From the NCBI GenBank assembly GCA_001460835.1, contig CYKH01000197.1:1-30563 (forward strand): 30,563 nucleotides of DNA, given 5' to 3'. Within the stretch, counting starts at the first letter, position 1, and every line of letters begins with the position of its first letter. The position numbers and the translations under genes are program-made. Below are positions 4,032-30,464 of this stretch, piece by piece. The notes beneath the pieces were generated by a model, which was not told where the DNA came from, did no database searches, and was given only the letters and a program-made list of their open reading frames with translations. This stretch comes from Bodo saltans (taxonomy: Eukaryota; Euglenozoa; Kinetoplastea; Eubodonida; Bodonidae).

Positions 4032-7000
4032 TACGGAAACAAGACGCTGCTGTTCTGCGAGGCGCGCCGCGGGTTTCTAGTTGGGACGAACTCTGCCCTC
4101 GCCCCCGTGGGCGTGCGGCCGAACACGAAGGATGAGCCGCTGCGCTTCGAACGCGCGGTGTTCATGATTGTGCCTGGCGACGGTGAGTGGACCGGCGCTG
4201 CTGCGCACGACGGGGAGGAGGTGAAGTTCGGGCAGGTTGTGCGGCTGATCCACACGATGCACCAGAAGCCTGTTGCGCAGCACGTGAACCTGCATGCGAT
4301 GGTGAACAAGGCGAACCAGCGCGTGACGCTGGACAAGGCAGGCGCGACTGCGACTGGTGGGAGCGCGACGCCGGACGTGTACGACCGCTGGCGGATCATG
4401 CCGCGGTACCGGCTGCGCGGCGAGGGTGAGCGTGTGTGCAGCACGGACCACGTTGTGTTCCAGTCCGTCTCCGGCGAAGTCGCGTTCCTGCACGTGTCGT
4501 CGACGCGTGACGCGACTGCGGATGGGTGCTTCGAGGTGAACTGTGGATCCGTGGCTGAGGGCTTCGAGGTGCGGCTGTACGACGCTGACGACTCCCGCGA
4601 CGTGCGCGCGCTGCGCGGTGGTCAGTGCGTGGCGCTGTTCCACAAGCAGGAGGGGCGCGGGCTGTCGGTGGAGCCGCGGAACGGCATGTGCCTGCTGGAC
4701 CCCGTGGACCATGTGGAGACGAGCGAGGAGGCGCCGTCGGTGCAGCAGGGCGCGACGCGTGCGCACAGCTACAAGTCGCTGTTCATCCTGGAGTACGCCG
4801 ATCCGCAGCGGGGCGGGATGATCGAGTGCGGGCGCCGCAGCATGTACCGCCTGAAAGCGCTGTGCAACGGCGAGTACCTGTGCGTGCGGCCAAGCGCGCC
4901 CGCCTCTGCCCCCGTCACCGCCGCACAGCAGCGGCCGCAGCATCTGGACCCGCAGGAGCAGGCGCTTGCGCTGTCTGATGGCGACGTGCGGATCGCGGAC
5001 GTGGTCGAGGCAGCGAAGAACGCGCTGTTCGACGTTGTGCTGAGCGCGAAGAGCGACGACCCCGGGACGTTGTTTGTGTTCCACCAGGGCGGCGACGACC
5101 AGAGCAGCACGCTGCGGGACGGGTGCCGCGTGTTCCTCGAGGCGCCGATGGTGGGGAGCGGCGGCCTGTGGGTTGTGGCTGGCGAGGCGATCGAGCCGCG
5201 CCACCTGCGGGAGCTGCTGGACGCGCCGACCGCGGAGCAGAAGCCGCTGAGCCTTGCGTGCCGCGAGGAGAAATCGATGCGCGACGGGCTGCAGGTGCAC
5301 CGCCTTCCTGGCGACGAGTACGAGGAGCTGAGCATCGTGCTGTCGCTGCTGCCGCCGCTGCAGGCGTACGCGGAGGCGATGACGAGCGGGGTGCTTGAGG
5401 GCAGCCTGGTGCAGCAGGTGCTGGAGAACGTGCGGCACCTGAAGCGGCTGTGCTTTGTGCAAGGGCGCGGCTCGACGATGCTGAGCGCTGGGAGCGAGGT
5501 GGACGGCGTGGCGAACGCGCTTGGCCAGCTGCTGCTGCTGCGCCAGGGCGTGCCGCAGCTGTGCGTCGACATCCTGCGCGCGACGCTGGAGTCTGTGCTG
5601 ATCGACTCGAGCCTGCTGAACTCGATGGAGGAGGTGCGCGCACCGACCACGCAGGAGGCGAGCGCGTTTGCGGAGTCGTCGTCCCCGCTACGGCGGCGCG
5701 ACTCGACGGTCGGTGCGGACGGCGCGCCGCTCGTGAAGTACGCGGACATCCTGGACCTGCTGAACTCGTGCTTTGCGCTGATCCTGGCGGTTGTGCGCGG
5801 GCAGCCGGGCCACGCGCGTGAGCTGAGCCTGCACCTGCAGTTCCTGGTGAGCTGCTGCCGCGTGCTGCCGAGCGCGGTCGAGTGCGTTGCGGAGTTCTAC
5901 CGGAACAACGTGCAGCTGGTGAAGACGCCCGGCGACACGAAGTCGCTGCACTTCTTCCTGGACATGCTGGCAGAGCGTGGGCGCGACACGTCGATTCTAG
6001 AAATCGTGACGCTGTTTGCGATGTGCGGGGACGAAGGCATCGCTGAGTCACAGCAGCTGATCGTGGAGCGCCTGCTGCGCCACAAGGAGATGTGCAAGGC
6101 GCTGATGCTGCCTGTGACGACGAGCGGGGACGTGCTGCAGGTGGGCGTGCCGGTGAGCTACGGTGGCCTGCCGCACGAGCGCGCGCTGCCGACGGCGGAC
6201 GAGAGCGTGGACGCGGTTGCGATGATCCCAATCACGCGCCTGAAGGACGTTGTTGGGTCTGCCTACGCTCAGCATGGGCGCAACCGGCCGCTGCCGTACT
6301 TCACGCAGCAGGTGCTGCTGCTGGCCGCTGTGTGCGCTGGGCGAAGCTCGTCGAGCACGCTGGCTGTGCAGCAGCTTATCCCGCCGGAGCTGATGCTGCC
6401 GCTGCTCGAGTGCGAGGGGATGGCGCCGGAGCTGCACGCCGCGTTTGTTCGGCTGTTCACGCTGTCGCTGGTTGAGGTGGCGGGCTCGCCTGACCTGTTC
6501 GAGCGGACGCGCAGCATCCGCCACGTGATCGACGAGCCGCAGCTGACGGAGTCGTACACGCTCGAGGAGGACGTGCCTGGGATCCTGGTGCGTGCGAAGC
6601 GGTTTGCACTGCGGTACCTGCAGCAGAACGGCGCAGCGGCGCGCGCCGACGTGCCCCACGTGCTTGAGCTGGACTCTGTGGCGATGCTGACGATGTCGCT
6701 GCTGAAGCGCGGGTCGTTTGCGCTGGAGGAGTACGCGCGGCTGGTGGCGGTGCTGACTGAGGTGCTGCGCAGCGGCGACCACGAGCTGCCGACGACGTCT
6801 GACGTGGAGCTCGTGCAGGCACTGCGGCACGTGCTTGGGATCCTTGGGCGGCTTGCGGACTTCCTGCTGACGCGTGACGTGTTCGACGTGGTGACAAGCT
6901 TTGTGCGCGGGATGCCGCTGCGGCACTTGAGCCAGTTCCACGACCTGTCGCCGACGTCGAAGATCGGAGACAGCTCGAAGAAGCGCGTGCAGGCGCGAGG

Positions 7001-10000
7001 CGCGGACGCGGTTGACGCGAAGCTGAACAGCCTCTTCAGCCTTGGCCAAGCGACTGGCGGCGCGGCTGAGTTCGACTGCCTTGCGGACCTGCTGCTGGTG
7101 CTGATGGTTGTGTCGCGCACTGCGAGCTGGGAGCTGCGTAGCGACGCGATCCGCCTGTTCTGCCGCTTGACGAACTACCCGGGCGAGCTGCTGCTGGCGG
7201 TGCAGCGCGTGCAGCTGCTGACGTCTGCTGCGAGCGCTGAGTTCTATGGGCGCGTGAAGCTGGTTGCGGCGGAGCTTGACGCGTTCTCGCGACTGCCGCT
7301 GTCGCCGTCGACGGTGGGCATGGGCGAGGCTGCGCTCGCGCGCATCGAGACGCTGCTGACGCAGCGTGACTGCGGCGCGATGATCGAGAAGATCGCGATG
7401 CTGCGGCACGCGGAGGTCCCCCAGATGCTGCTGCGCGTGCTGCACGGGATGCCGATGCCTCCGAAGGAGGACGTGCGGCTGTTCGTGTTCAACGTTGTTG
7501 GGCTGCTGCAGACGATGGGGCAGGAGCCGCTTGTGCTGGAGCTGCTGGCTGCTAGCGTGCCATCTTTCGTGCACCTGACAACGCACGACATGGACGTGCT
7601 GTCGCTGCTGCGCACGATCTACTGCGGGAAGCCGCTGATGGCGATGCAGGTGCCTGTGCGCGTTGTGCGTGAGGTCGTGGCGTGCCTGTCGCTGGAGCAC
7701 AGCGCTGCGCATGCGCTGCAGCTGCTGCGCGAGCTGATCGCGACGAAGGACCCTGGCGGGAAGTACATCTCGAAGAACCAGCGCGCGGTGTGGAAGGCGC
7801 TGGTGGCGGACGCCGGGTCTGCGAGGCTGCTGCGGCTGCGCGGGACGTGGACTGGGCGGCGCGGGACTGCGCGGCGTGACCAGCTGCTGCAGTCGGAGGA
7901 GTACTTCAACCACTCGGGGCCGCTGCGCCTGCACGTGTCGCTGATGGAGGTTCTGTTCCTGACGGCGAAGACGAACGAGCTTGTGAAGGCGGAGGAGATC
8001 CGCGACGAGCTGTTTGGGCCGAACAGCGTGGACGAGCTGATCGAGATTGTGACGAACCAGCGGCTGCCCGTGTTCTACCGGTTCCGGTTCGTGAACGTGC
8101 TGCAGGTGACGGTGGTGCAGGACGCCGCGTGCGTGTCGTCGCTGTTCTCGCACCGGGCGTTCCCTGATTTTGTGCGGCTGTGCTGCGTCGACGTGAACCG
8201 GTGCCTGCAGCTGCTGGACGGGAAGTGCGCGAACCCTGCTGACGCGGAGCTGATCGCGCGAGTGGAGCGGCAGGTGCTGCGGCGGGAGCCGCGGACGAGC
8301 TTCGAGGAGGCGATCGAGCAGCGGCGGACGAGCCTTGAGTTCTACCTGGAGCACGTTGTGCTGGGCATTGTGCCGTGCCTGAAGCACCTGGTGGGCCGCT
8401 TCGTGAAGGGGACGGCGCGCCTGAGCCAGACGGTTCGCCAGCACCTGGTTGGCGTTGTGAACGAGCTGGTGGACTGCATCTGCGACCTGCTGCGGCAGGT
8501 GTTCGTGCTGAACTCGTTCCACGACTACAAGTTCTTCCAGTCGCGGATCTCGCGGAAGAAGCCGCGCGACTTCCTGGTGCACGCGGCGAAGAACTCGTTC
8601 TGCGGGAGCGGGCGGTGGGCGGACGACATCGAGTCGCTGGCGGAGTCGATCCCGCTCGAGGACGCGGACGAGTCGGACGAGCACGACCGGCTGCACAGCT
8701 CTGCGGCGGACGAGAAGGCGCTGACATCGAAGTGGCTTGGGTTTGTGCGGAAGCACCTCGAGCTGGGGTGCCCGCTGGACCCCGAGCGGCTGTACGCGTC
8801 TGGCGCCGGGCTGATCCTGCGAAGCGGTGGGCGCGGGACGCAGTTTGTGCGGAAGCTGATCCTGAGCCTGTGCGACTTGCCGATGCTGGAGCAGGCGCGC
8901 GTGCTTGACCTGCTGCGGCAGGTGGTGGGCGTGCGCGACGGCGACGAGGCTGACGACTCTGTGCTCCTGCGGCTGGACGCGTGCGCCGTGGCGGTCGAGG
9001 GCGACGACGCCGAGAGCGGTGCGAACGCGCTGGGCGGCCTTGGCGTGCTCGGCGTGCTGACGCTGTCGAAGCCGATGGAGGACCGACAGGAGATCCTTGC
9101 GTCGTACTTCGCGGACCAGCCGCACATGCAGGTGCTGCCGGCGGTGACGCAGCTGATGTCGCGTGGCACCGGTGCTGCTCGCGCTGCAGCGCTGCGATGC
9201 GCGCTGGTGTTGCTGGAGGGCGGGCACCGGCGGATGCAGGAGTCGCTGTGCGCGTCCGTTTCGCAGCGGAGCGACGAGGACCTGTTCATCGTGATGAGGA
9301 GCCGGATGCAGCAGTGCCGCGATGCGCTGCGGTCGTATCGGTACGCGATGCGGCGCGGCGCGCGAGAGGAGGCTGTGATGGTGCTGGGTTCGCTGGAGAC
9401 TGTGGTGCGCGAGCTGCGGTACTTGCAGCTGCTGTGCGAGGGCCACTTCGAGGACCTGCAGCACTACCTGCGGCGGCAGCCGGACAACCATGTGTCTGTG
9501 AACGTGCTGGAGAGCCTGGTGGAGCTGCTGGAGGTGGCGGTGAGCGTGGTGGACGCGAACACGTATGCCCTGACGATGCAGCTCCTGGAGACGATCACCG
9601 AGACGATCCAGGGGCCGTGCAAGTCAAACCAGGACTTCTTTGTGACGGTGAACGCGGCTGAGTTCCTGACTGCGCTGATGGTGCTGCCGCTGAACCAGGC
9701 GACGCTGACGGAGACGGAGGTGCGTGCGATGCGCGCGCAGTCGCTGACGGTGCTGCTTGCGCTGATCGAGGGACGGATGGAGGTTCTGTTCCTTGGCGGG
9801 CTGATCTCGAAGCTTGACCTGCGGCAGATGGGGCGGGCGATGGAGCAGAGCGCGCGTGAGTACGAGGCGCGGTGGGGTGCGCTCGAGGAGCACCGCGGCG
9901 TGCTGGCGCGGAGCTTTGGGTTTGTGCGGCGGATCCTGTCGTACGTTGAGAAGATCTACAAGACGGACGAGCGCGACGAGACGCAGGACGAGCTGTGCGT

Positions 10001-11318
10001 GGCGGTGAGCATCTTCATTTTCTTCAAGGCGTGCCTTGACCTGCAGCAGCTGAAGTCGTACGCTGGGTCGACGCACGAGTTCGCGGACAAGAACGGGAAC
10101 ACGATCCGGGACGTGCTGCGGCAGTCGCCGTGCTACCGCGCTGTGAACAAGCGCGTTGGGATGGTGGAGATCCTGCGCGAGGGTGCGCTGGAGCGGAGCT
10201 ACTTCCGGATCCTGTCGGTGAGCTCTGAGAACCTGCGCGACTTCAGCAAGGAGGAGGTGATCAAGTCTGTGGACCGGTCGAGCGACAACAAGCGGCTGCA
10301 GGACTACTTCGAGCAGTGCAACAAGCTGATGCTTGAGCTGGACTCGTACGCTGCGATGCAGGACTCGCCGCTGCTTGCGTTCATCCAGGACTACGCGTCT
10401 GAGTTCGACGTGCTGGGGCTGCTGGTTGTGTTCACGATCAACCTGATCATGCTGATCACGTACAAGGCGCAGGAGAACATCTACGACGACCCGGTTGCGC
10501 CTGAGATCCGGCGCGCGGTGGACGTGCTTGCGATCATCCTGATTGTGCTGCAGTGCATGCTGTTCGTGAACTTCTTCTTTGGCCCGACGCGGGTGTACCT
10601 GCAGGGGTGCTGGCTGCGGTGGCAGGAGTCGAAGGTGGAGGAGCTGCTGGACGAGCACCGCGCCGGGCTGTCGATTGAGCCGATCGAGGAGGACGTTGAC
10701 TTCTTGGCGGAGGTGACGCCTGTGCAGTACTACCTGCAGTCTGCGTACTACATCTTGCAGTTCGGGAAGTTCTACCAGCTCTCGCTGTACCTGCTGTGCG
10801 CGGTGATGGGATACGCTCAGTCGCCGATTTGGTTCAGCATCCAGCTCCTACAAATCACAAGCAAAAGTGCAATGCTCAACAACATTGTCTTGGTCCTGAG
10901 TAATTACGCAGCGAGCATCGCGCTCACGTTCTTGCTAGCGTTGTTTGTATGCTTCATCTTCGCAAGCATCTGTTTCTACTACTTCTCGGAACTTTTTGAC
11001 GCACACGCGCTGCAGCGGCCTGGAGAAGATTGCGACACGATCTGGAGATGTTTTCTGAACCATGTGGACAGCGTTCGAACTGACGGTGGGGTGGGCGATG
11101 TCGTTGTCAAACCATCGTGGAATGGCCCGAGTTACTTGGGTGTGTCCTTCTATTTCTTGAGCTTGATTTTCTTTGCGTCCGTGAAGATTGTGGCGTTGCA
11201 GCTTGTGTTTGGCGGTGATGGGATACGCTCAGTCGCCGATTTGGTTCAGCATCCAGCTCCTACAAATCACAAGCAAAAGTCAACTTCTTTACAACGTTGT
11301 CTTGGCCATTTCAACTAA
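4032..11318 (+). CDS. IP3-receptor/ryanodine-receptor-family Ca2+ release channel, main part (frame broken)
   Basis: The open frame runs 4005-11318. Its body matches the IP3-receptor family of tetrameric intracellular Ca2+ release channels. In T. brucei the family member sits on acidocalcisomes; location here is unknown. In order: N-terminal beta-trefoil (LLFCEARRGFLVG near 4050, then VRLIH and QRVTLDKAG), MIR-type repeats to about 5250, alpha-solenoid RIH regions, an RIH-associated domain (about 10020-10390, with MVEILREGALERSYF), then membrane helices from about 10410. The pore loop reads DGGVGD near 11085, where IP3 receptors have GGGVGD. The second half of the last helix is lost: after LVF (11211) the frame runs into an out-of-frame repeat and stops at 11316-11318. 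No ATG is in frame before 4164; the A-rich-context ATG at 4028-4030 is one base out of frame, with body codons resuming at 4032. Codons from about 4050 to 10850 are very GC-rich and change abruptly afterwards. Possibilities are a pseudogene, a mosaic, or assembly error. Confidence 0.85.
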   Translation, partial: YGNKTLLFCEARRGFLVGTNSALAPVGVRPNTKDEPLRFERAVFMIVPGDGEWTGAAAHDGEEVKFGQVVRLIHTMHQKPVAQHVNLHAMVNKANQRVTLDKAGATATGGSATPDVYDRWRIMPRYRLRGEGERVCSTDHVVFQSVSGEVAFLHVSSTRDATADGCFEVNCGSVAEGFEVRLYDADDSRDVRALRGGQCVALFHKQEGRGLSVEPRNGMCLLDPVDHVETSEEAPSVQQGATRAHSYKSLFILEYADPQRGGMIECGRRSMYRLKALCNGEYLCVRPSAPASAPVTAAQQRPQHLDPQEQALALSDGDVRIADVVEAAKNALFDVVLSAKSDDPGTLFVFHQGGDDQSSTLRDGCRVFLEAPMVGSGGLWVVAGEAIEPRHLRELLDAPTAEQKPLSLACREEKSMRDGLQVHRLPGDEYEELSIVLSLLPPLQAYAEAMTSGVLEGSLVQQVLENVRHLKRLCFVQGRGSTMLSAGSEVDGVANALGQLLLLRQGVPQLCVDILRATLESVLIDSSLLNSMEEVRAPTTQEASAFAESSSPLRRRDSTVGADGAPLVKYADILDLLNSCFALILAVVRGQPGHARELSLHLQFLVSCCRVLPSAVECVAEFYRNNVQLVKTPGDTKSLHFFLDMLAERGRDTSILEIVTLFAMCGDEGIAESQQLIVERLLRHKEMCKALMLPVTTSGDVLQVGVPVSYGGLPHERALPTADESVDAVAMIPITRLKDVVGSAYAQHGRNRPLPYFTQQVLLLAAVCAGRSSSSTLAVQQLIPPELMLPLLECEGMAPELHAAFVRLFTLSLVEVAGSPDLFERTRSIRHVIDEPQLTESYTLEEDVPGILVRAKRFALRYLQQNGAAARADVPHVLELDSVAMLTMSLLKRGSFALEEYARLVAVLTEVLRSGDHELPTTSDVELVQALRHVLGILGRLADFLLTRDVFDVVTSFVRGMPLRHLSQFHDLSPTSKIGDSSKKRVQARGADAVDAKLNSLFSLGQATGGAAEFDCLADLLLVLMVVSRTASWELRSDAIRLFCRLTNYPGELLLAVQRVQLLTSAASAEFYGRVKLVAAELDAFSRLPLSPSTVGMGEAALARIETLLTQRDCGAMIEKIAMLRHAEVPQMLLRVLHGMPMPPKEDVRLFVFNVVGLLQTMGQEPLVLELLAASVPSFVHLTTHDMDVLSLLRTIYCGKPLMAMQVPVRVVREVVACLSLEHSAAHALQLLRELIATKDPGGKYISKNQRAVWKALVADAGSARLLRLRGTWTGRRGTARRDQLLQSEEYFNHSGPLRLHVSLMEVLFLTAKTNELVKAEEIRDELFGPNSVDELIEIVTNQRLPVFYRFRFVNVLQVTVVQDAACVSSLFSHRAFPDFVRLCCVDVNRCLQLLDGKCANPADAELIARVERQVLRREPRTSFEEAIEQRRTSLEFYLEHVVLGIVPCLKHLVGRFVKGTARLSQTVRQHLVGVVNELVDCICDLLRQVFVLNSFHDYKFFQSRISRKKPRDFLVHAAKNSFCGSGRWADDIESLAESIPLEDADESDEHDRLHSSAADEKALTSKWLGFVRKHLELGCPLDPERLYASGAGLILRSGGRGTQFVRKLILSLCDLPMLEQARVLDLLRQVVGVRDGDEADDSVLLRLDACAVAVEGDDAESGANALGGLGVLGVLTLSKPMEDRQEILASYFADQPHMQVLPAVTQLMSRGTGAARAAALRCALVLLEGGHRRMQESLCASVSQRSDEDLFIVMRSRMQQCRDALRSYRYAMRRGAREEAVMVLGSLETVVRELRYLQLLCEGHFEDLQHYLRRQPDNHVSVNVLESLVELLEVAVSVVDANTYALTMQLLETITETIQGPCKSNQDFFVTVNAAEFLTALMVLPLNQATLTETEVRAMRAQSLTVLLALIEGRMEVLFLGGLISKLDLRQMGRAMEQSAREYEARWGALEEHRGVLARSFGFVRRILSYVEKIYKTDERDETQDELCVAVSIFIFFKACLDLQQLKSYAGSTHEFADKNGNTIRDVLRQSPCYRAVNKRVGMVEILREGALERSYFRILSVSSENLRDFSKEEVIKSVDRSSDNKRLQDYFEQCNKLMLELDSYAAMQDSPLLAFIQDYASEFDVLGLLVVFTINLIMLITYKAQENIYDDPVAPEIRRAVDVLAIILIVLQCMLFVNFFFGPTRVYLQGCWLRWQESKVEELLDEHRAGLSIEPIEEDVDFLAEVTPVQYYLQSAYYILQFGKFYQLSLYLLCAVMGYAQSPIWFSIQLLQITSKSAMLNNIVLVLSNYAASIALTFLLALFVCFIFASICFYYFSELFDAHALQRPGEDCDTIWRCFLNHVDSVRTDGGVGDVVVKPSWNGPSYLGVSFYFLSLIFFASVKIVALQLVFGGDGIRSVADLVQHPAPTNHKQKSTSLQRCLGHFN
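10800..10868 (+). repeat. 69-bp perfect direct repeat, copy 1
   Basis: This copy is identical to 11212-11280. It begins gcggtgatgggatacgctca and ends caaatcacaagcaaaagt. Bases just outside differ (c against g on the left, g against c on the right). Here it is in the frame of the main channel body and encodes AVMGYAQSPIWFSIQLLQITSKS without the first A's leading base. The change from GC-rich to ordinary codon usage falls inside it. Confidence 0.97.
11212..11280 (+). repeat. 69-bp perfect direct repeat, copy 2
   Basis: This is the second identical copy, 412 bp downstream of the first. As 412 is not a multiple of three, the upstream frame reads it out of register (GDGIRSVADLVQHPAP) and soon terminates. 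The correct frame continues into the downstream pore module. Confidence 0.97.
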
Positions 11319-12135
11319 TGGTGCCAGTCTCCTTCTGACATTAGTGTTGATGCTTTGTGTTGTGTTTGTGTTCGCCAGCATTTCGTTCTACTACTTCTCA
11401 GAGCTGTACAGTCCCCAAGTGAGCGGCATGGACGGGTTTGATTGCAACACGCTTCTGCAGTGCTGGCTCATACATATCGATGGGATTCGCTCTGGTGGTG
11501 GCGTTGGCGACAACGCAGCCGCGCCGTCGTTCCACACCGGCGGCCAGGGGTACTCCTTCTATGTATTTCGCCTGATGTTTTTCATCATTGTGGTGATTAT
11601 CTTTTTGAACATCGTGTTTGGTATCATCGTCGATAGCTTCGCGCAACTTCGTGAAGATCGTGAGTTCGTCGAAATGGACCAAGTCTCGAAGTGTTTTATT
11701 TGCGGCGTGGAGCAGAACGAATTTGACCGCGTTGCGCCTGGCGGCTTCGATCACCACATTCGCACTGAGCACAACATGTGGCACTACCTGTTCTTCCTGC
11801 ACTACATCAAGAAGAAGGACAAAGCGAACTTGAGCGGACAGGAGTCACACGTGTGGAAGAAGGTGAAGGCGAAGGAGCCGTCGTTCTTCCCGATTGGTCG
11901 TGCGATGATGCTTCAGACGGAGCTGATTGAACAAGACGCCGAAGAGACCAAGAAGTTAGAGTTGTACCGTGGAGTCATGGAGAGCATCGTGTCCAAGTAC
12001 TCCATCGATGTTGAGATGAAAATAGAGGGGTTTGGTGAGCGCCTAGAGGGAGTTGAACACGCCATTTTAGGACGTAGCGATCTGCTTGGCGCGTCCACAA
12101 CCTCGAGACGGTCGTTGAAGATGAGTGGCGCTTAG
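11218..12135 (+). CDS. IP3-receptor-family C-terminal channel module (pore, TM6, zinc-binding linker, coiled coil)
   Basis: This fragment repeats the pore region of the preceding frame but is complete. It has the GYAQSPIWFSIQLLQITSKS segment, a long pore-lining helix (about 11290-11400), the canonical selectivity filter GGGVGD (near 11500), and the last helix FLNIVFGIIVDSFAQLRE. Then comes the linker domain with CFICG...GGFDHHIRTEHNMWHY, whose two Cys and two His match the zinc-binding finger of IP3 and ryanodine receptors. A Glu/Lys-rich helical tail ends the protein. The first ATG in frame is 11218, inside repeat copy 2; the frame is open from 11188. It has no acceptor of its own and overlaps the upstream frame by about 100 bp, so it is the displaced 3' end of the channel gene and not a separate gene. 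Joined across the 69-bp repeat it follows the main body in frame. Codon usage is ordinary. Confidence 0.85.
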   Translation: MGYAQSPIWFSIQLLQITSKSQLLYNVVLAISTNGASLLLTLVLMLCVVFVFASISFYYFSELYSPQVSGMDGFDCNTLLQCWLIHIDGIRSGGGVGDNAAAPSFHTGGQGYSFYVFRLMFFIIVVIIFLNIVFGIIVDSFAQLREDREFVEMDQVSKCFICGVEQNEFDRVAPGGFDHHIRTEHNMWHYLFFLHYIKKKDKANLSGQESHVWKKVKAKEPSFFPIGRAMMLQTELIEQDAEETKKLELYRGVMESIVSKYSIDVEMKIEGFGERLEGVEHAILGRSDLLGASTTSRRSLKMSGA

Positions 12136-19914: not shown

Positions 19915-21426
19915 ATGGAGCTTCATACAGCCGCGGCACAAGGTGATCTCAATGCCGTGAAGTCATGCTTGGCACGGGCTCCCATGCTGCTGCACGCAGT
20001 CGATTACGAAGGTCGAACTCCACTCCATGTTGCAGCTGCTTCGTCTGGAAACGCTGCGATTGTTCGGTTCCTATTAGAGCGGGGGGCGAACCCTTCTGTA
20101 AAAACACTATTCACGCGCCTCACCCCCAGCGACGTCGCGCATGAGGCAATCAAACCGCTGATTGTTGCCGCCCAAGTGAGTCAGGGGAGCCGAAATCGGC
20201 AACGATCGTCTTCACCATCAAAAAAAAGAGTGCGTCCAGGAACCCCCACATCACCCAACAGCGCACAACAATCACCACACAGCCCGCACATCGACAGCGG
20301 AAGTGAAAACATCATCGCGGAAAACAAAGTGGAGAGCACAGAAATTGTGAACCCCAAGACCATGCGCAAGGTCATCATCGTGGTGCTGTTTCCCTTCGTC
20401 ACCCTTATTTTTGTGAATGGTCTGGTGTTTGCTCTCAAGTTTTTGCTTGTCACATCGGTGTTCTACTTTCTTGTGGTTGGTTACTTTGTGTCGGAGATCA
20501 CGATTCGCCCGCCGTGGTACCACCACCATCCAGGCGCGCTACAACTGACTGCGAAGGGCTGCCCTGAGTACTGGGAGGGGAAGATCTGCGACCCCTTGAC
20601 CGACTACGAGATTCCATACGAGGACGTCACGATCCACTCTACCGAAGGCTATCGCCTAAGTGGGTGGTACGTGGCGGCGCCAGCAGCGCGGCGTGGCGTT
20701 CCTCGACGTGACACTTGCTTGGTGCTGGTGCACGGCGGGGGCCGAGATCGGCGCGCCTGGCTTCGGCACCTCCCGATGTTCCACAAACAGGGCTACTCAG
20801 CTCTCTTGTTTGATTTCCGTGAGCATGGGCTGAGCTCAGGGAACTGCAACGGTTTCCGATACGGCATGAAAGAGCGCTTTGACGTCTTGGCGGCCGCGAG
20901 GTATGCGAAGGAGCAACGTGGCCACGCAAAGGTGGTCGCTATCGGTACCAGCGTGGGAGGTTCTTCTGTCATCATGGCGGCGGCGCTTGATAGGAGTGCG
21001 ATCGATGGTGTGATTGCAGAAAACGCCATCACCACGTGTGCCATGTTGCAGGACTACATTATCACGAACCTCTTCGGTGGGTACTTCTCACGGCATTGGA
21101 TGAGTGTGTATTTCTTCAACGCGTTCAGGCTGACGTGCAGCGCGTGGTTGAACATTCGCATTGGCAATAAGCCCTCGAAGCATTGCCAAGCGTTGCATTG
21201 CGTGAAAGCCATTTCCCCACGACCAGTGCTCCTCATGCACGGTAACAGTGATGAGGTTGTTCCGACGTCGCACTCCGAGCAGTTGTATCGAGCCGCATGT
21301 GAGCCGAAGTCATTATGGATTTGTGATGGCGCGTTTCACTGCGGGTTGTACAATAAAATGCCTGAAGAATTTGAACGAAGGGTCTTTGGTCTGTTGCGGC
21401 AGGTTGAGGGAGAAGGGGAGCAATGA
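19915..21426 (+). CDS. Ankyrin-repeat, membrane-anchored alpha/beta hydrolase
   Basis: This 503-residue protein has three parts. Residues 1-85 are about two ankyrin repeats (LHTAAAQGDL, GRTPLHVAAASSG, LLERGANPS), a protein-binding module. After a Ser/Pro-rich linker (90-150), residues 152-194 form one long or two closely spaced membrane segments. The rest is a serine hydrolase of the alpha/beta fold, with HGGG oxyanion-region motif (273-276), FDFREHGLS (299-307), nucleophile elbow GTSVGG with S346, acid D446 in HGNSDEVVP, and H475 in GAFHCGL. The triad is complete, so an active lipase, thioesterase or peptidase is likely. It resembles the Bem46/ABHD13-17-like hydrolases, but the substrate cannot be told. 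The ankyrin part would face the cytosol if the membrane part spans twice. The start is set by the first ATG in an A-rich leader. Confidence 0.85.
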   Translation: MELHTAAAQGDLNAVKSCLARAPMLLHAVDYEGRTPLHVAAASSGNAAIVRFLLERGANPSVKTLFTRLTPSDVAHEAIKPLIVAAQVSQGSRNRQRSSSPSKKRVRPGTPTSPNSAQQSPHSPHIDSGSENIIAENKVESTEIVNPKTMRKVIIVVLFPFVTLIFVNGLVFALKFLLVTSVFYFLVVGYFVSEITIRPPWYHHHPGALQLTAKGCPEYWEGKICDPLTDYEIPYEDVTIHSTEGYRLSGWYVAAPAARRGVPRRDTCLVLVHGGGRDRRAWLRHLPMFHKQGYSALLFDFREHGLSSGNCNGFRYGMKERFDVLAAARYAKEQRGHAKVVAIGTSVGGSSVIMAAALDRSAIDGVIAENAITTCAMLQDYIITNLFGGYFSRHWMSVYFFNAFRLTCSAWLNIRIGNKPSKHCQALHCVKAISPRPVLLMHGNSDEVVPTSHSEQLYRAACEPKSLWICDGAFHCGLYNKMPEEFERRVFGLLRQVEGEGEQ

Positions 21427-26096: not shown

Positions 26097-29000
26097 ATGG
26101 AGATTGACAAGTACCCTGATGCTGAACTCGTCCTTGCAGACGGGACACGCTACCGCGGCAAAAGCTTCGGCCACCGTGCCAGCGTCGCCGGTGAGGTGGT
26201 GTTCGCCACCGGAATGGTTGGGTATCCTGAGACCATGACGGATCCCTCCTATCAAGGGCAAATTCTCGTCCTGACCTACCCCCTCATTGGAAACTACGGA
26301 GTGCCAAACATTCAAACAGACGAGGACGGCCTCACGCACTACTTTGAATCTCATCAAGGCCGAATTTACATCTCTGCCCTTGTGGTCGGGGAGTATTGCG
26401 ACACGCCAAGCCACTGGCAAGCAGTTCGCACGTTAGGCGATTGGCTCCGTGACAAAAACATCCCTGCCATCTTCAGCGTGGACACCCGCAACGTCGTCAT
26501 CAAGCTTCGCGATAGCGGCTCCGCTCTCGGAAAGATTGTCATCGAGAACCAAGACGTTGAATTTGTCAACCCGAACTCTCAACATCTGGTGAAACAAGTG
26601 TCCACCCGGTACCCAGTGGAGTACGGCAGTGGCGATATCACCATCTTGTGCCTTGACATGGGTATCAAGTTGAACACCATCCGGTGCTTCCTCAAGCATT
26701 ACGTACGGTTCCGTGTGGTGCCCTGGGATTGGGACATCCGACAAGAGAAGTACGACGGCCTCTTCATCAGCAACGGACCTGGCGATCCGTCGGTTAACAC
26801 GGAAACGATTGACAATGTTCGCTGGGCGAAGAGCGTCCTCTTCGGACACAAGCCGTAAACGTACCCGGTGGTCTAGTACCGGGTCAGGACGCCACCGAAG
26901 ACGTACAAGCTCAAGTACGGCAACCGTGGACAGAACCAGCCGTGCAAGTGTCACCTGACCGGCCGAGTGCTGATTACCACGCAGAACCACGGGTACGCAG
27001 TCGATGTCGACACCCTGCCAGAGGATTGGGAGCCGTACTACACCAATCAAAATGATGGGAGTAACGAAGGCATCCGCCACAAGACGAAGCCGTTCTTCTC
27101 CGTGCAGTTCCACCCCGAGGCCCGTGTCGGCCCAATGGACACGGAGTTTCTTTTCGATGACTTCATCAAACAAGTTCGTCATGCCCGTGCCAAGGAATAC
27201 GTTGCCAACTGCCCCAAGAGGGTTCTCGTTCTGGGAGCCGGTGGCATTTCCATCGGTCAGGCGGGTGAGTTCGATTACAGCGGTAGCCAGTGTCTGAAAA
27301 GTCTTCGAGAGGAGGGCATCTTCAGCATTCTCATCAACCCCAACATCGCCACTGTGCAGACGGAAGTGGGCATGGCGGACAAGACATATTTCGTTCCAGT
27401 GAACGTGGAGTGTGTGACCCGTGTCATCGAGATGGAGCGTCCGGGTGGTATTCTGCTAGGTTGGGGAGGTCAAACCGCGCTCAACTGCGGGCTGGAGCTC
27501 GAGGAGCAGGGCGTGCTTGCCAAGTACGGTGTTCGAGTTCTCGGGACGCCAGTCCGAGCGATCGAAATGACCGAGGATCGTGAGCTCTTCCGTGACACGC
27601 TGCTCCAAATCGGCGAGCATGTCGCTCAGTCAGAGGCTGTCGTCAACGTGGACGCTGCCGTGATGGCCGCCTCGCGTATCGGCTACCCAGTCATGGTGCG
27701 CGCTGCGTTTGCTCTTGGTGGTTTGGGCAGCGGCATTTGCGACAACGAAGGCGCCCTCCGCTCGCTCGTGACCGTCGCCTTAGCCAACTCCCCCCAAGTC
27801 CTCGTTGAGCGTAGCGTCAAAGGCTGGAAGGAGGTGGAGTATGAAGTCGTTCGTGATATCTACGACAACTGCATTACTGTGTGCAACATGGAGAACTTTG
27901 ATCCGATGGGTGTGCACACGGGTGAGTCCATTGTGGTCGCTCCATCTCAGACGCTCACCAACGACGAGTACCACATGCTGCGTACCGCATCGATTAAAAT
28001 CATTCGCAAGCTGGGTATTGTAGGCGAGTGCAACATCCAGTACGGACTGAACCCCAAGTCCCACGAGTACGTGGTGATTGAGGTCAACGCACGCCTCTCC
28101 CGCTCGTCCGCACTTGCGTCCAAGGCGACGGGGTACCCTCTGGCGCACGTTGCGGTGAAGTTGGCCCTAGGCAAAGCACTTCCTGATGTGAAAAACGCCG
28201 TCACGAACTCCACCTCCGCGTGCTTTGAGCCCAGTCTTGATTACTGCGTGATCAAGCACCCCCGTTGGGACTTGTCTAAGTTTAACATGGTCAGCCAGAC
28301 TCTTGGCTCGATGATGAAGTCTGTCGGTGAAGTCATGTCGATTGGCAGGAACTTCGAGGAGGCATTCCAGAAGGCACTGCGTATGGTAGACAGCTCCAAC
28401 AAAGGATTCGAACCGACCGAGGACGAGTTCGACTACATGCACGAGATCCAGAACCCAACACCACGTCGTGTGTTCGCGATTGCGCGAGCTTTGGCGGAAG
28501 GGCACACGGTCGAGGAGATCCACCAGCTGAGTCAGATTGACTTATGGTTTTTGTACAAGCTCCAAAAGATCCACCGTCTGCGCACGTACATTAGCACTTC
28601 GTTCGGCTCGTGCAAGATGGCCAACCTCATTCCAGAGCCCGTCCTGCGTGAGGCTAAGGCGAAGGGTTTCAGCGATAAGCAGATCGCATCGTATGTGAAC
28701 TTGAGCCACGATGACATTCGTGCCAGGCGCCACCAACTCAACATCATGCCCATCGTAAAACAAATTGATACCGTCGCAGGTGAGTTCCCAGCAGATCAGA
28801 GCGGATACTTCTTTTTGTCCTACAACGCGCAATACGACGACTGCACGTTCCAGACGCACAACAACCCGCCCATCATTGTAGTAGGTTGCGGTGTGTATCG
28901 CATCGGAAACAGTGTTGAGTTCGACTACAGCGGTGTGCTGGTGAGCCGCGAGCTGAGACGTCGCGGCCATCGCGTTGTGCTCATCAACTGCAACCCCGAG

Positions 29001-30464
29001 ACGGTGTCCACGGACTACGACGAGGTGGATCGGTTGTACTTCGATGAGGTGTCCTCTGAAGTAGTGCTCGACGTGATTATTAAGGAGAACCCCAAGGGCG
29101 TGATTATTTCCGTTGGTGGTCAAGTTGCACAAAACATGGCACTGGAACTGCAACGCTTCAACGCGCCAGTTCTCGGCACCTCTGCGGACATGATCGACGC
29201 AGCGGAGGACCGCAACAAGTTCTCGGCCTTGTGCGATCGACTTCAGATTGACCAACCTCGATGGGCGTCTCTGACAAGCGTGTCGGATGCCAATCGGTTC
29301 TGCGACAACCTTGGCTTCCCAGTTCTTGTGCGCCCCTCGTACGTCCTCAGCGGCTCCGCCATGGCAGTGATTTGGAGAGAAGACGACGTGCAGCATTACC
29401 TCGCCGCCGCATCACGCGTATCGGGGAAGTACCCGGTTGTGATCAGCAAGTACCACGTCGATGCGAAGGAGTACGACGTGGACGTGGTAGCGTTCCGTGG
29501 AAACGTGCTGTGCTACTCCATTTGCGAACATATTGAGAACGCCGGCGTCCACTCTGGCGACGCGACCATGTTCCTGCCGCCCCAAGACACAGACGACGAG
29601 ACGCTCCAGATCTTGAGAGATCAGACGATCAAGTTGGCTGCAGCGTTGAACGTGACTGGTCCGTTGAATGTGCAGTTCCTACGCACGGTTGAGGGCGAGG
29701 TAAAGGTGATTGAAGCAAATCTTCGATCATCCCGATCCATCCCCTTCTGTTCCAAAGTGTTGGGCATCTCGTTCCCTAGAGTCATGGTGGACGCCTTCCT
29801 CGGCACCGAACTCAACCCACCCCAGCCGGTGCCTCAGGGCGATATTATGGCATTACCGTATGTTGGCTGCAAGACGTCGATGTTCTCCTTTGTGCGATTG
29901 GCCAAGGCCGACCCCATTCTCGGAGTAGAAATGGCTTCCACCGGTGAGGTCGGTGTGTTTGGTCATGAGAAGCACGAGGCCTTCTTAAAGGCACTCATCG
30001 CGTCCCGGTTTGTCTACCCCACTTCTAGTGTCCTGGTAGCCATCGATCGGGCTGAGGACTGCATTCAGTTTCTTCCTTACGTCAAGAAGTTGGCCTCCAA
30101 GTACATCATCTACGCCACGCCGCTCACTGCCACAATCCTCCGTGGCAGTGGTTGCCCGTGCACCATCCTGCACCTCCCTGAAAACCACCACGTCGAACCA
30201 ACAGTTTTGGGGCATTTAAAGAAGAAGTTGATCTCCTTGGTGATTCAACTCCGTGACAAGTCACGCGATTTTGTGCTGCGACATCAGACGGAGGAGACTG
30301 CTAGCCAAGATTACTACGTGCGAAGATATGCCGTAGATTTCAACACGCCTCTGGTGACCGAAATCCGGTTGGCGGAGTTGTTGACGGATGCCTTGTTGAG
30401 GTATGAGCCGAAGGATTTGGAAGTCCTTCCGTACGACGCATACGTTCCGCATGTGACCTACTAG
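26097..30464 (+). CDS. CPSII: Glutamine-dependent carbamoyl-phosphate synthase (CPSII), frame interrupted at 26856
   Basis: CPSII makes carbamoyl phosphate from glutamine, bicarbonate and two ATP, the first step of pyrimidine synthesis. It is one fused polypeptide (about 1455 codons): glutaminase half (1-370), two ATP-grasp synthetase halves (about 375-760 and 920-1290) and a C-terminal regulatory MGS-like domain. Seen are SNGPGDPS (226-233), TYKLKYGNRGQNQPC, TQNHGY, glutaminase H339 and E341 in FHPE, GQAGEFDYSGSQ, VRAAFALGGLGSG, IEVNARLSRSSALASKATGYPLA, VKQIDTVAGEFPA, YRIGNSVEFDYSG and VRPSYVLSGSAM. Like kinetoplastid CPSII it is not fused to aspartate transcarbamoylase. Two in-frame stops (TAA 26856, TAG 26871) fall exactly where the nucleophile motif GICxGHQ should be. 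Before and after, the frame is the same and the length is right. The 57-base patch is an in-place complement, described separately. Taken literally, the sequence makes only a 253-residue fragment; the rest has no acceptor or start of its own. Confidence 0.93.
26841..26897. other. In-place complemented (not reversed) segment in CPSII
   Basis: Read normally, this stretch gives non-homologous sequence with TAA and TAG. Replacing each base by its pairing partner without changing the order gives KPVFGICMGHQIMAQSCGG. That is the glutaminase active-site block, with nucleophile Cys at codon 26859-26861, correctly spaced from GPGDP before it and from KTYKLKYGNRG after it. The right edge is within a base or two of 26897. 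The left edge is less certain (about 26831-26847). Confidence 0.9.

Follow-up and report, generated by a model that had tools for sequence, protein, structure and literature searches.

The glutaminase nucleophile block of CPSII is written as an in-place complement in a Bodo saltans genome record

The CPSII gene of Bodo saltans, as it stands in the window that we analyzed (30,563 nucleotides, bases 1-30563 of one contig in an assembly of 29,294,288 bases and 934 contigs), carries at positions 26841-26897 the in-place complement of its glutaminase nucleophile block. When these bases are complemented one by one in unchanged left-to-right order, the missing nucleophile motif reappears in frame. 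We consider it highly probable (roughly 0.93) that the block arose as an artefact of the stored sequence, in which case the error would belong to the record and the DNA would be free of it.

An interrupted CPSII gene and the block that interrupts it

The gene extends over 26097-30464 of the forward strand and encodes a fused glutamine-dependent CPSII in one frame, which is broken by the block as written (Table 1). Pfam analysis of 26097-26837 identified CPSase_sm_chain (E 1e-46) and GATase (E 3.1e-7), and the frame of this first part is closed by the first of the block's two stops. Analysis of 26898-30461 identified GATase and CPSase_L_D1, D2, and D3, and this second part is open to its own stop with no internal stop. 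A small-chain domain, a class-I glutaminase, and a duplicated ATP-grasp synthetase are thus present in one chain, as judged by Pfam from two parts that share a frame. This arrangement of small-chain domain, both class-I glutaminase halves, and duplicated synthetase is that of CPSII and CarA-CarB, but unlike these proteins the gene as written lacks the nucleophile block and its frame is stopped twice. The second part contains QFHPE, which aligns with the HPE of CPS1 and CarA and whose His and Glu we take to be the glutaminase triad residues.

Table 1. Positions in the window of the two CPSII parts and of the complemented block.
Feature	Position	Strand	Basis
CPSII first part, CPSase small-chain and N-terminal half of class-I glutaminase	26097..26840	+	Pfam
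Leftward extension of block, probable	26823..26840	+	Codon preference of relatives
Minimal block, in-place (non-reversed) complement with nucleophile motif	26841..26897	+	Translation, alignment, transformation scans
CPSII second part, C-terminal half of the glutaminase (including HPE) plus duplicated synthetase	26898..30464	+	Pfam

As written, the block reads FGHKP*TYPVV*YRVRTPP in the CPSII frame, so that the nucleophile Cys in its GIC.GHQ-like elbow is absent and two stops stand in its place. Complemented in place, the same bases read KPVFGICMGHQIMAQSCGG in frame, which is the glutaminase nucleophile block of CPSII, with the catalytic Cys codon at 26859-26861. The motif appears only in this in-place complement. 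The reverse complement reads RWRPDPVLDHRV..., its other two frames contain stops, and none of its frames holds the motif; nor was the motif seen in the plain reversal of the block. With the block masked as 19 X, no gap crossed it in the three printed CarA alignments, where IPVFGICLGHQLLALASGA stood opposite the masked residues with its Cys replaced by Ser in one of the three. The complement peptide has the CarA residue at 11 of the 19 masked positions, as counted by eye, and both printed CPS1 alignments contained inserted residues, one within the block and another ahead of it. These findings bear out what the preliminary description had claimed about the gene: that the catalytic Cys motif is struck and the frame cut by two stops, that base-by-base complementation restores the motif and fits the flanks without gain or loss of bases (gap-free against CarA), and that the true reverse complement lacks it.

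We compared the block with CarA relatives under 48 base-exchange and reversal transformations. The CarA set comprised 11 stretches, one from a bacterial contig and 10 from plasmid-record loci; 8 of the 11 fitted the first motif expression and 10 of the 11 a wider one, and the remaining stretch (L034), which fitted neither, was left out. A tblastn search matched 55 plasmid records and supplied the plasmid loci, 10 being used from among the 20 matches listed. The 24-base flank pattern occurred in one bacterial contig, which reads as CarA, and in no viral contig. A search of the genome contigs for related loci found none, and the first 744 bases of the gene had no match among the plasmids at the DNA level.

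In three frames, the 48 transformations give 144 readings of the block, and among these the in-place complement reached a BLOSUM score of 66 against the CarA stretch, with the next reading at 15; the maximum over 20,000 shuffles of the block was 23. We also scanned the window together with 20 stretches from the same genome, 204,686 non-N bases in all, at every position under the 48 transformations for the nucleophile motif only; the top score was again 66, at 26841 and as the in-place complement, followed by 40. Mean identity to the 10 CarA genes over the 57 bases was 36.2 for the in-place complement (range, 31 to 40), and 25.7 for the next of the 48 transformations; the reverse complement averaged 17.0 and the text as written 8.1. 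The in-place complement therefore outscored plain reversal and every other base exchange. Ranked by codon use among coding 57-mers, the complement fell at the 56th percentile and the text as written came last, although this test discriminates poorly because plain reversal reaches the 41st percentile.

Extent and edges of the block

The right edge of the block is sharp. The Lys codon at 26898 fits the relatives only as written, and the edge falls at 26896 or 26897 because either base at the last position gives Gly. On the left, the text as written has Leu at 26838, where the relatives have polar residues or Gly, and Lys at 26829, where they are mostly aliphatic. For the codons at 26835, 26832, and 26826, the complement was not favored by the relatives. 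Summed leftward over the 10 CarA relatives, the preference for the complement reached its maximum at 26823. In a leave-one-out control over the six codons upstream, the window gave +6.9 per relative in favor of the complement, whereas the relatives' own codons were negative in 10 of 10 cases. With a one-residue shift of the loop, support at the sixth codon drops to +3.2 or +0.3, and the left edge is therefore uncertain (about 26822 to 26838), being known to within about 16 bases. Judged by these codon preferences, the block probably begins left of 26841, with 26823 as the best estimate, and would probably be 60 to 76 bases long, with 57 as the minimum. The 57-base extent originally given thus stands at its right edge, while its left edge probably has to be moved outward.

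A start at 26823 makes a block of 75 bases whose middle, base 26860, lies in the catalytic Cys codon. This symmetry hints at a chosen edit, and the 75-base length hints at a single short sequencing read. We also considered an artefact of FASTA lines, and rejected it since no block edge coincides with a line boundary: 26841 was compared with line lengths of 60, 70, and 80, the end of the block was compared with a line length of 60, both forward and mirrored, and a hand check of 26838 and 26823 likewise found no edge that fits.

CPSII and its surroundings in the assembly

Gene content and the placement of genes on one strand point to a kinetoplastid genome. The window and the assembly carry identical text at the block. 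The CPSII locus and the block as written each occur once in the assembly, and a search that allowed up to 3 mismatches found no normal version of the block. CPSII is the only PF00988 match found in the 29.3-Mb assembly, which yielded no second small-chain domain, and a second or allelic CPSII copy was rejected as an explanation, none having been found there. An OMPDC-family match lies in an open frame of 472 codons and a PF02729-family (ATCase/OTCase) match in one of 391 codons, and these long open frames suggest that the pyrimidine pathway is at least partly used. No DHODH scored above the family cut-off in the assembly (best, 23.3 bits versus 27). Bodonids are reported, in the portion of PMC7052976 consulted, to have DHODH, and the assembly may be incomplete. 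A scan for interrupted frames in 21 sequences yielded 30 loose candidates, among which the CPSII site alone combined flanks of 200 codons or more on either side with a gap of less than 100 bases.

Other places in the window and assembly were also observed to be irregular or unusual. An IP3/ryanodine-receptor-like gene lies in frames 4107-11318 and 11188-12135, with a frame change near 11200. Within 10800-11405, its pore region occurs twice (194 nt at 75% identity, spacing 412), GC falls from 0.67 at 9 to 10 kb to 0.51 at 11 to 12 kb, and the region has a 74% match over 279 bases on another contig (C822). This irregularity may reflect a misjoin, the fusion of a paralogue, or duplication of part of the gene. 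An open frame at 19915-21426 joins ankyrin repeats to an alpha/beta hydrolase, and another at 404-2488 matches nibrin over about 100 residues (E 1.5e-6). Nine of the 20 sampled assembly stretches contained one N run each, of 300 to 8851 bases, which may be scaffold gaps or stretches withheld from the sequence.

Origin of the block and what it would mean

In strand exchange, inversion, and template switching the strands stay antiparallel, and the product is therefore a reverse complement. No ordinary mutation explains the block, because an inversion would give the reverse complement, which the block does not match. Both this point and the view that an edit or data-handling error is the likeliest cause had been put forward in the preliminary description, and our analysis supports them, no standard rearrangement making an in-place complement. 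We propose that about 60 to 76 bases surrounding the catalytic Cys codon were replaced, one column at a time, by their complements, with their order left unreversed. Such a result would follow if each column's base had been given in the letters of the wrong strand, or if a string had been complemented but never reversed. For instance, Perl 'reverse' in list context would give a complement without reversal. We infer that an in-place complement is a property of files and not of polymerases, and it is because the operation is file-like that we hold the record to be at fault. The second irregular place on the same contig, in the receptor-like gene near 11200, was also counted for an artefact of the record.

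The fault may have entered during assembly, gap closing, or curation, or else when a file was edited later. An edit or data-handling step, possibly deliberate, has about an even chance of being the cause, and an assembly or gap-closing fault is a substantial possibility somewhat short of even. The draft assembly of Bodo saltans went through SGA, Velvet, SSPACE, GapFiller, IMAGE, ICORN, and REAPR, according to the part of PMC4728078 consulted, and strand mistakes are conceivable in those steps. Speaking against a misplaced read, position and length would not normally be kept base for base. In the portions of the literature on exchanged or unreversed sequence and on gap-closing faults that were covered, we found no paper that traces a block of this kind to faulty software.

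Physical inversion of a short segment, whether in the organism or in the assembly, would keep length and flanks as they are kept here, and small inversions do occur in both settings. However, an inversion yields a reverse complement, whereas the block is a complement in unchanged order. Translation and comparison with the relatives refute an inversion, since the reverse complement of the block contains the motif in no frame and has less than half the mean identity of the in-place complement to the relatives. In addition, no inverted repeat of at least 14 bases was found in 26400-27300, and we regard the chance that an inversion occurred as vanishingly small. Equally negligible is the idea that the gene has decayed or been replaced by unrelated DNA that matches the complement by chance, or that it is recoded and its stops are read. 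The two in-frame stops would suit such a history, as would the lack of a DHODH above the cut-off, by which the pathway might be partly lost. Against it, the rest of the CPSII gene is open, and a chance match to the complement is refuted by the shuffle and transformation-scan scores. Reassignment of stop codons fails as well, since the peptide as written lacks the motif whatever the stops are read as.

A biological origin has to be weighed against a class of records called swinger DNA (Seligmann), which, as stated in the part of PMC4942731 consulted, is known so far only under the rule A<->T + C<->G. Its example there is the 16S gene of Kamimuria wangi in an otherwise regular mitogenome record, a base-for-base complement without reversal inside normal sequence, as in CPSII; unlike that case, the CPSII block is short and lies in a protein gene over a catalytic motif. 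The block obeys the same rule with order kept, this being the best of the 48 transformations. The word "unprecedented" in the preliminary description was therefore too strong for the pattern, which these database records precede, although the biological reality of the records is unproven. By the words of PMC4942731 itself, only its author describes such entries as swinger, and PMC7027195, in the portion covered, allows that its swinger ESTs could be artefacts and then argues against this view. It is accordingly very unlikely that a polymerase wrote an exchanged stretch that was then fixed in the genome, even though the block, embedded in normal sequence, shows exactly the transformation reported. 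Such an event would break the only CPSII gene found in the assembly, and no second block is known in this genome from the interrupted-frame scan of 21 sequences or the scan for the nucleophile motif. We also know of no accepted enzyme mechanism for swinger synthesis. Just as improbable is that the genome truly holds 60 to 76 bp of unreversed complement, with CPSII broken and tolerated or corrected at the RNA level. If that were true, some process would write DNA by parallel and not antiparallel complementarity, and a new way of copying DNA would be needed.

With the block as an artefact of the record, the organism's own gene is presumably intact and would encode a glutamine-dependent CPSII that supplies carbamoyl phosphate for pyrimidine synthesis. 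An artefact of this kind would escape a check for inversions and would lead annotators to call a core metabolic enzyme broken. The block also lends itself, as a clean case, to the question of whether swinger DNA entries already published share a clerical origin.
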